Positions 27,654-29,932 of a DNA stretch of 37,808 bases are shown here, piece by piece; within the stretch, counting starts at the first letter, position 1; every line of letters starts with the position of its first letter. The stretch covers positions 1 to 37,808 of the forward strand of contig JAEETK010000009.1 of the NCBI GenBank assembly GCA_016290315.1, given 5' to 3'. The notes under the pieces were generated by a model. That model did not search any database, was not told the DNA's origin, and saw nothing but the letters and a program-made list of their open reading frames with translations. Both the position numbers and the translations under genes were made by a program. This stretch comes from Candidatus Saccharimonadota bacterium. Its GTDB lineage: Bacteria; Patescibacteriota; Saccharimonadia; Saccharimonadales; Saccharimonadaceae.

Positions 27654-27662
27654 TGCTACAAT
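27654..27662 (+). promoter_or_regulatory. Extended -10 promoter, leaderless start of the PfkB-aldolase gene
   Basis: TGCTACAAT ends six bases before the ATG at 27669. No Shine-Dalgarno is present for this start. Confidence 0.68.
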
Positions 27663-27668
27663 AAAAGC

Positions 27669-29510
27669 ATGAGCAACATTTTGATTGTTGGCAATATCAC
27701 GAAAGACGTTTATCTGCGCCTCGATAATCGCCAAAACAAATTCGAGACCGACCAGAACGATATCAAATGGCTAGATTTCGCTTTTGACGGTTCTACGCAT
27801 AAATATTACAACCGTGTCTCCATTTTTGGCGGCGCTAGCATCAGCCTAGAAGTATTGACGCGTTTTGGGCTAACAGCCGAAATCGCAAATACCTCAGCGA
27901 AGTTCCTAGATGGGCAATTCATCGTCAAAGACACCAATATCGTTTATCGATATATTCTTTGCCAAGACCGCCACGTCAGCTATCTTAGCCCTAGCAACTA
28001 CAAACAAACCACCTGGGAAATTCCCAAAGAAAGCATAGACTGGATCTATGCCGACCGCAGCGCCAGCATCTCGCCAAAACTTGCCGAAGAACTCATCGAA
28101 TATCTAAATCTAAATCACCAGAGCAAATTAGCATTATTCGTCGGCAAATATAGCAACGTTAATGCCAATCATATGCGCGAACTCATCAATCGCGCCAGCA
28201 TCGTTATCACAGACACGAAGCTCAATCAAAATGTCGAAAACTTAGTTGTCATTACACCACATCATATCGAATATATGGGCAAACGCGTTCGCTGGCAGCT
28301 CGAAGATCGTCAAGACCTCATGACGCATCTTAGCTCGCATCTAACCATTGGCGCCTCTGTTTTCGGCGCACTTGTACTTGGGAAAGATGTTGACGAAGCT
28401 TTACTTCTAGCGCGTGCCAACATCGAACGCTCAATCCTAAGTTCTAGCTCTAACATCTCAACACTCGAAGAAGAAATATCCGACGATTTCTATCGCGTCG
28501 AAAAACACAATCCAAAGGAGGATAAAATGCTTGAAGTAGAATCTAACGCAAAAAGACTAGTTTCCGAAGGCCGCGGCATCCTCGCCGCCGACGAATCCGG
28601 CGGTTCTATCCATAAGAAATTTGAAGGTATGGGCATTCCAGACGACGAGCAACATCGTCGCGATTATCGAAATCTTTTCTTTACTACCCCAGATCTCGAG
28701 AAATTCGTCAATGGCGTTATTCTTTTCGACGAAACCGCCCGTCAGCAATCCGATGACGGTCGCGATTTTGTCACATTCTTGGCCGACAAGGGCATTCTGC
28801 CTGGCATCAAAGTGGACCAAGGCCTCGAACCTATCGATGGTACTGACGAAAAATACACCAAAGGTCTCGATGGTCTATCAGATCGCCTCGCCGAATATTA
28901 TCAAATGGGCGCCCGCTTCGCAAAATGGCGCGCCGCTTTCGAAGTAACCGATCATAGTCCTAGTCAAATGGCAATTCGCAAAAATGCCGAAATTCTCGCC
29001 CAATACGCACTTGACTGTCAAAACGCTGGCATTGTGCCAATTGTGGAACCAGAGCTAGTCTACGATGGCGATTATCCAATCGAAAAGAACATAGAATTTA
29101 CTGGGCAAATTCTTGATGCCTTGTTTGAAGAGCTCAAGAATAAAAACGTCAGTCTACCAGGTTGTATCCTAAAAGTTAACATGGTGCTTGCAGGCAAGCG
29201 CTATCACACACAGTCCACCCCGGCCGAAGTAGGTAAAGCCACTGCCGACGTGCTAAAGGCACACGTTCCGAGCAACCTTGCCGGCGTAGTCTTCCTTAGC
29301 GGCGGCCAAAGCGTCACACAAGCTACCGACAATCTTCAGGAGGTCACTAATAACGGTCCATTCCCATGGCCAGTCACCTTCTCGTTTGCGCGCGCACTCC
29401 AAGATCCCGCACTTAACGCCTGGAAAGGAAATAACGAGAACGCCGATGCAGCTCGTGCCGGTTTTCGCGAACGCCTCGTCGCCAACTGCGAAGCCCTAAA
29501 GCGCAAATAA
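27669..29510 (+). CDS. PfkB-like domain fused to class I fructose-bisphosphate aldolase
   Basis: The 613-residue frame contains two domains. Residues 1-275 resemble a PfkB/ribokinase fold: ILIVGNITKDVYLRL, IFGGASISLEVLTRFGL, a middle sugar-binding region and HLTIGASVFGALVLGKDVDE in place of the second PfkB signature. In active kinases that signature reads GAGD, where Asp is the catalytic base; here it reads GASV, so kinase activity is doubtful. Residues 287-613 are a complete class I aldolase, which splits fructose-1,6-bisphosphate to two triose phosphates. A linker of about ten residues (VEKHNPKEDK) joins them. An excellent internal ribosome binding site sits exactly at the junction. Frame and stop are intact, with no frameshift. 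A terminator follows. Confidence 0.88.
   Translation: MSNILIVGNITKDVYLRLDNRQNKFETDQNDIKWLDFAFDGSTHKYYNRVSIFGGASISLEVLTRFGLTAEIANTSAKFLDGQFIVKDTNIVYRYILCQDRHVSYLSPSNYKQTTWEIPKESIDWIYADRSASISPKLAEELIEYLNLNHQSKLALFVGKYSNVNANHMRELINRASIVITDTKLNQNVENLVVITPHHIEYMGKRVRWQLEDRQDLMTHLSSHLTIGASVFGALVLGKDVDEALLLARANIERSILSSSSNISTLEEEISDDFYRVEKHNPKEDKMLEVESNAKRLVSEGRGILAADESGGSIHKKFEGMGIPDDEQHRRDYRNLFFTTPDLEKFVNGVILFDETARQQSDDGRDFVTFLADKGILPGIKVDQGLEPIDGTDEKYTKGLDGLSDRLAEYYQMGARFAKWRAAFEVTDHSPSQMAIRKNAEILAQYALDCQNAGIVPIVEPELVYDGDYPIEKNIEFTGQILDALFEELKNKNVSLPGCILKVNMVLAGKRYHTQSTPAEVGKATADVLKAHVPSNLAGVVFLSGGQSVTQATDNLQEVTNNGPFPWPVTFSFARALQDPALNAWKGNNENADAARAGFRERLVANCEALKRK
28527..29510 (+). CDS. fba: Possible independent class I fructose-bisphosphate aldolase from an internal start
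   Basis: ATG at 28527 is codon 287 of the larger frame and is preceded by AAAGGAGG (28514-28521) with a five-base spacer. The product of 327 residues equals a full class I aldolase. Conserved sites are present: GILAADESGGSIHKKF near the start, FAKWRAAFEV, the Schiff-base Lys in GCILKVNMVLAG, and the phosphate loop VVFLSGGQSVTQATDNL. This is the eukaryote-type class I group. Since almost no other housekeeping start here has so good a Shine-Dalgarno, I think the cell makes both the fusion and a free aldolase, or that the nested start is the main aldolase source. It overlaps the previous entry by design. Confidence 0.65.
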   Translation: MLEVESNAKRLVSEGRGILAADESGGSIHKKFEGMGIPDDEQHRRDYRNLFFTTPDLEKFVNGVILFDETARQQSDDGRDFVTFLADKGILPGIKVDQGLEPIDGTDEKYTKGLDGLSDRLAEYYQMGARFAKWRAAFEVTDHSPSQMAIRKNAEILAQYALDCQNAGIVPIVEPELVYDGDYPIEKNIEFTGQILDALFEELKNKNVSLPGCILKVNMVLAGKRYHTQSTPAEVGKATADVLKAHVPSNLAGVVFLSGGQSVTQATDNLQEVTNNGPFPWPVTFSFARALQDPALNAWKGNNENADAARAGFRERLVANCEALKRK

Positions 29511-29533
29511 TCAATAAGAGTTTGTGTCATTTA

Positions 29534-29564
29534 AAACCGCATTCTTTACAGATGCGGTTTTTTA
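29534..29564 (+). terminator. Terminator of the PfkB-aldolase gene
   Basis: AAACCGCAT, a ten-base loop and ATGCGGTTT are followed by TTTTA. Confidence 0.85.
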
Positions 29565-29602: not shown

Positions 29603-29698
29603 TTGACAGAATATCCATTCTATTGTAATATACAAAAGGTGTAGCGTCTCTTAGCTACGGTACTTTTAACTGAGGTTCATATTAAAGGAGGGAAAAAT
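29603..29698 (+). promoter_or_regulatory. Promoter and hairpin leader of the acidic miniprotein gene
   Basis: TTGACA (29603-29608), a 17 bp spacer and TAATAT (29626-29631) form the promoter. The leader of about 60 nt can fold as AAAAG/CTTTT outside GTAGC/GCTAC. Then AAAGGAGGG lies six bases before the ATG at 29699. Confidence 0.65.
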
Positions 29699-29932
29699 AT
29701 GGGCAAAGATATTCTCTTGTATGCAGTCGCTCTCACATGTTCTTTCATCGCGGGAATTGTTACCGCCAAAATTGCGGATAAACTTTCCGGCCGCAACAAC
29801 GGCCATGACTACGACAACGATGGCAGCTACGACGATGATGACTATGACGACGACTACGAAGACGACGACTACGAAGACGGCGAAGAGGAAGAGGAGGAAT
29901 ACTTCGACGATGAAGATCCGGACGTTTGGTAA
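29699..29932 (+). CDS. 77-residue membrane-anchored acidic miniprotein
   Basis: One hydrophobic helix at residues 5-27 (ILLYAVALTCSFIAGIVTAK) is followed by a short basic patch (KLSGR) and a tail of about 40 residues made almost only of Asp, Glu and Tyr (NDGSYDDDDYDDDYEDDDYE and onward). The positive patch after the helix and the lack of a cleavage site suggest the acidic tail is cytoplasmic. No family is recognised. Such a tail could bind calcium, magnesium or basic proteins, or be a charge mimic. Expression signals are strong: promoter, structured leader, near-perfect Shine-Dalgarno and terminator. Codon-level low complexity in the tail means frame shadows on both strands are not real genes. 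Confidence 0.72.
   Translation: MGKDILLYAVALTCSFIAGIVTAKIADKLSGRNNGHDYDNDGSYDDDDYDDDYEDDDYEDGEEEEEEYFDDEDPDVW

Follow-up and report, generated by a model that had tools for sequence, protein, structure and literature searches.

The window, a stretch of 37 808 nucleotides from a Candidatus Saccharimonadota genome, contains an open reading frame in which a ribokinase-fold domain, probably a pseudokinase, is joined through a linker to a class I fructose-bisphosphate aldolase (Table 1). At the junction of the two domains lies a second ATG (28527-28529), which direct reading of the sequence places in frame with the ATG at 27669 as codon 287 of 613, and the Shine-Dalgarno (SD) element and five-base spacer that a sequence-only reading had described in front of it proved to be exact. 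Every genome of the genus that encodes a class I aldolase (44/44) carries the fusion, as do several other genera of the family; the N-terminal domain is present in all 45 genomes of the genus examined, and in all but one the frame runs on across the junction into the aldolase, a few contigs ending inside it. An assembly error joining two genes is ruled out by this open frame, as is an untranslated upstream part by the conserved protein sequence of the pseudokinase. Candidatus Saccharibacteria MAGs make up the named relatives at 99-100% identity, and several further relatives come from ruminant guts. A search of the open-access literature returned no account of a pseudokinase-aldolase fusion or of its internal start; genes with dual products are a known kind of system, of which the present instance appears to be undescribed in the literature searched.

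Table 1. Features of the fusion gene and of the corresponding aldolase cistron in G002.
Feature	Position	Strand	Basis or remark
Extended -10 element TG-C-TACAAT, predicted leaderless promoter of the fusion	27654..27662	+	6 nt before ATG 27669
Fusion ORF, ribokinase-fold domain (probable pseudokinase) and class I fructose-bisphosphate aldolase	27669..29510	+	613 aa; junction frame open in 44/45 genus genomes
Ribokinase-fold domain with linker, N-terminal (residues 1-286)	27669..28526	+	AlphaFold model me656eeae7ce9; PDB structure matches
Residues 222-225, SSHL, at the aligned position of the PfkB catalytic GAGD	28332..28343	+	Alignment; motif lost
Internal Shine-Dalgarno element AAAGGAGG	28514..28521	+	Sequence read directly; 16S pairing
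SD-ATG spacer ATAAA, five bases	28522..28526	+	Sequence read directly
Free class I aldolase (327 aa), predicted second product starting at ATG codon 287	28527..29510	+	Start codon in 37/44 fusions
Terminator-like hairpin 3' of the fusion gene	29533..29561	+	
Class II aldolase, Bacteroidota type, separate cistron (G002)	L052 1393-2355		Overlaps pseudokinase stop (ATGATTAG), behind AAAGGAGG

A complete aldolase behind a kinase-like domain

The aldolase domain is complete and shares 44% identity with rabbit muscle aldolase in a structural alignment, and its active-site motifs, including the Schiff-base lysine, are conserved (ILKVNMV, FAKWR, IVEPE, ILAADES and GIKVD; alignment with solved aldolases and A2). 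Matches to the family profiles PF00274 and NF033379 (376 bits against a cut-off of 22.2 and 405 bits against a cut-off of 250, respectively) span residues 289/290 to 609/611 and start at profile position 1/2, two to three residues beyond the methionine of codon 287; a full-length class I aldolase does begin at ATG 287, as had been claimed, and the short product would therefore be a complete enzyme. No class II aldolase was detected in the genus genomes searched, G002 excepted, so that outside G002 no fructose-bisphosphate aldolase other than the fused enzyme was found.

The predicted structure of the N-terminal domain has a mean pLDDT of 80, and its top structural matches in the PDB all belong to the ribokinase/PfkB family, with Z scores reaching 19.9 across about 250 residues. 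The catalytic GAGD motif is retained by the kinases L059, L060, L064 and L066 and absent from all of the pseudokinase-type fusions aligned; a Pfam search with 14 members returned neither PF00294 nor any other Pfam match for this domain, and the pseudokinase profile matched no sequence in the PDB. Judged from its sequence and predicted fold, the domain is probably a pseudokinase, and the earlier assignment as a working PfkB phosphofructokinase holds for the fold but not for the activity. A separate PfkB kinase with an intact TGAGDAF motif is encoded elsewhere in the same genome, and no PfkA-type enzyme was found in the approximately 350 kb covered. The loss of GAGD together with this true PfkB rules out a bifunctional phosphofructokinase-aldolase as the simple reading of the gene, and a 'PfkB-aldolase' label would misleadingly imply such an enzyme where the phosphofructokinase step is debated. 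In Nanosynbacter lyticus TM7x, a PfkB proposed to be a phosphofructokinase and an aldolase are encoded in one operon (TM7x_02415/02420; PMC12815258). A PfkB-family gene is thus physically linked to a fructose-bisphosphate aldolase in Saccharibacteria there as well, although the TM7x genes are separate and the kinase is predicted to be active, whereas here the domain is fused to a class I aldolase and lacks the catalytic motif.

The PfkB domain to which the class I aldolase is joined in the genus g75 (L233, L235 and L242) retains TGAGDAF, from which it is likely that an active kinase-aldolase fusion came first and that kinase activity was lost afterwards. The g75 fusions are themselves candidate bifunctional kinase-aldolases, and the genomes concerned encode a class II aldolase as well. 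In the sister genus g2 the pseudokinase ORF stands alone, the aldolase domain having been lost (L121, L122, L123, L124, L128 and L129), or is accompanied by degenerate or truncated aldolase remnants (L126 and L127); an independent role for the pseudokinase is possible. Elsewhere in the order, free class I aldolases of other families are adjoined by a PfkB-like ORF on the same strand.

Initiation signals of the fusion and at the domain junction

The ATG at 27669 lacks an SD element and is preceded, at a distance of six bases, by the -10 element TGCTACAAT. In the genome of the window a -10 element of this kind occurs near the start of 16% of genes compared with 0.7% of internal ATGs, and an extended -10 element lies 4-9 nt before the fusion start in 37 of the 45 genus genomes, an SD element taking its place in six and two being ambiguous. 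The suggestion that the upstream start is probably leaderless is thus supported by the element found in this species and in 36 others, and leaderless initiation of the fusion is likely in this species. The proposal of two initiation modes fits these species, but not the six that use an SD element upstream, which have no -10 box and have kept the internal SD; an internal start does not always go with a leaderless one upstream.

The internal SD is complementary at 8/8 positions to the 3' tail of the 16S rRNA of its own genome (...ATTACCTCCTTTCT), with a pairing energy of -12.1 kcal/mol at a spacing of 5. A search for the tail by the exact pattern GGATCACCTCCTTT gave no match because the tail here reads GGATTACCTCC; the 16S rRNA end in L211 shows GGATTACCTCC in place of the usual GGATCACCTCC. 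Energies of -9 kcal/mol or lower are found at 26% of gene starts against 0.5% of internal ATGs. An SD match of at least seven bases precedes only 3 of 1522 internal in-frame ATGs, the junction ATG included (2/1521 others), in a same-genome background of approximately 350 kb; 72 kb of contig C11 (80001-152000) reads as N. RNA accessibility at the junction is above average in most species but moderate in this one, at the 72nd percentile, and is weak evidence. SD-like sequences within genes need not initiate translation, and a single strong internal SD could be a matter of luck; the case consequently rests on the relatives.

Among the 44 fusions of the genus, the junction start codon is the best-kept column of the segment from -10 to +1 in an otherwise variable linker, being ATG in 34, GTG in three and ATC, GCT, GCA, ACC or GAA in the remaining seven, and 28 of the 37 fusions with a start codon have an SD match of at least six bases, mostly at an aligned spacing of 4-5. 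The fusions were grouped into 28 lineages, 24 of which have the start codon, and in all 24 the strongest SD before any in-frame ATG, GTG or TTG of the gene is that of the junction start. The junction SD exceeds what synonymous resampling of the same residues yields (Fisher combined p of 1e-6, kinship not being fully removed), with a mean mid-p of 0.12 against flat controls of 0.56 at 255 other in-frame start-type codons of the same genes and 0.49 at 259 other SD-prone Lys-Glu/Lys-Gly sites. The linker residues vary between Lys-Glu, Lys-Gly, Arg-Gly and Gln-Gly, and the SD moves by one base between codon registers while the spacing stays constant; such persistence of signal and spacing through residue change is what selection on an RNA signal predicts. 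These comparisons support nucleotide-level selection, in most of the genus, on both the SD and the start codon of the junction. That the fusion is the only product, and that codon preference merely happens to turn Lys-Glu or Lys-Gly of a charged linker into an SD, is very improbable: AAG GAG makes up 13% of the Lys-Glu pairs in the genome, so a single occurrence would not be rare, but chance does not account for recurrence over 24 lineages, flat controls and linkage to the start codon.

The conservation looked for among orthologues was found in part. The signal is conserved beyond coding need in 24 of the 28 lineages of the genus and absent from the other four; start codon and SD have been lost while the fusion was kept in 7/44 fusions (about four lineages), and in the close relative L013 the junction SD is weak (-6.1). 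Beyond the genus, the internal SD is missing from the fusions of all other genera examined. Fusions kept without the internal SD are among the findings that the sequence-only reading had named as refuting it, and the internal start is accordingly an advantage and not a necessity.

Pausing of ribosomes by anti-SD pairing at domain boundaries has been proposed and disputed, and an SD-like element exactly at the domain junction could in principle act in this way, aiding the folding of the pseudokinase without initiating translation. A pause would need neither a start codon nor a fixed spacing, yet ATG or GTG at an aligned distance of 4-5 nt has been kept; SD strength drops in the lineages without the start codon (p of 0.0014, four such lineages only), and the fusions of other genera have the same domain boundary without an SD. 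Pausing is therefore considered an unlikely explanation. A free aldolase could also arise by proteolysis of the linker, which is poorly conserved and of low pLDDT, or from an internal promoter, but neither explains an SD together with a start codon, and both are held to be extremely improbable. The plus strand contains no promoter-like site from 27987 to the junction, and the internal promoter was rejected as no candidate lies close upstream of the junction on that strand.

Origin of the internal start

In the other genera examined no fused gene has an ATG with an SD at the junction, though one, L140, has an ATG and SD nine codons upstream. With the free class I enzymes as root, the tree of the aldolase domain is consistent with a single fusion event, older than the genus-specific signal, and the internal start would accordingly be a gain in this genus, probably acquired later, under selection, inside an existing fusion. 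A fusion scar is disfavoured by the same two observations. They also weigh against the related view that SD and ATG are relics of a formerly separate aldolase gene, decaying without function, since both the sister and the outer genera have fusions without an SD. A decaying relic would agree with the loss of the internal start in some species and with the two-cistron arrangement of nearly the same sequence in G002; on the other hand, a protein identity of 50-60% should mean saturation at synonymous sites, but the SD remains strong and above coding need, and this explanation is regarded as improbable, slightly more so than pausing.

G002 lies at the base of the genus in the pseudokinase tree, its position with respect to the sister genus not being resolved. 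It has no class I domain; its pseudokinase ORF ends ...AAAGGAGGAACAAAATGATTAG, the ATG of which starts a class II aldolase. This enzyme shares 29-32% identity with the class II aldolases of its own family but 70-72% with those of Bacteroidota, and was thus probably acquired by transfer. No SD precedes the class II aldolase gene in the two Bacteroidota relatives read, which makes it more likely that the SD in G002 is the junction signal of the recipient, as far as one genome and an inferred order of events allow. The replacement amounts to a natural experiment linking the junction signal to aldolase supply.

Two predicted products and comparable systems

Taken together, the comparisons favour, with a probability of roughly 0.75, a two-product gene in which a leaderless start yields the fusion and an SD-dependent start, gained within the older fusion and kept by selection, yields a free aldolase. 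That one gene yields a complete class I aldolase both within the fusion and in free form, the core of the sequence-only reading, is very probable, given that selection maintains SD and start codon at the junction across most of the genus; of that reading as a whole, the two products stand, while an active PfkB and a general pairing of two initiation modes do not. The transcript would start at or beside AUG 27669 and be translated into the 613-residue pseudokinase-aldolase fusion, while 30S subunits would bind the SD at 28514-28521 on the same mRNA and initiate at AUG codon 287 to give the 327-residue aldolase. If ribosomes use the internal start in this way, fusion and free aldolase would coexist in the cell.

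Class I aldolases of the family in question are typically tetramers, which makes it plausible, if speculative, that the two products co-assemble into mixed oligomers, the free subunit setting the number of pseudokinase domains in each. A precedent for mixed assembly is provided by SctQ/YscQ of type III secretion, where an internal start in the gene for the full-length protein yields a C-terminal product, SctQC, that binds the full-length form (PMC4295842). There, too, one gene combines, in its N- and C-terminal parts, counterparts of two proteins from a related system, and an internal start frees the C-terminal part; the proteins are unrelated, and SctQC has been demonstrated and is required, whereas the free aldolase is predicted and is dispensable in some species. 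A further, rather doubtful extension would make the dead kinase a regulatory subunit, its dose set by the balance between SD-started aldolase and leaderless-started fusion; by responding to growth state, this balance of initiation modes would, through mixed tetramers, tune glycolysis in an ultrasmall parasite.

In the Cas11 system, internal in-frame translation of cas8b likewise releases a separate C-terminal subunit that begins at a methionine inside a large ORF, and the short product has been demonstrated by mass spectrometry (PMC11899642), whereas the free aldolase is a prediction and both protein and context differ. The bacterial N-terminal proteoform pairs revealed by Ribo-RET, for example in Salmonella, also derive two products from one ORF through annotated and alternative in-frame starts (PMC11005335); they come from a general census, while the short form predicted here corresponds to the whole enzyme domain of a fusion. 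If the two-product reading is correct, the gene would represent a clear natural case of a fusion regaining an independent product through a start added after the fusion and then selected.

The sequence AAAGGAGG is also found before the ATG of the next gene downstream, which encodes a very acidic short protein (window 29684-29702). It recurs on contig C11 of the same genome (L162 19362-19374), with a five-base spacing to an in-frame internal ATG at about codon 368 of 466 in a gene resembling cysteinyl-tRNA synthetase.
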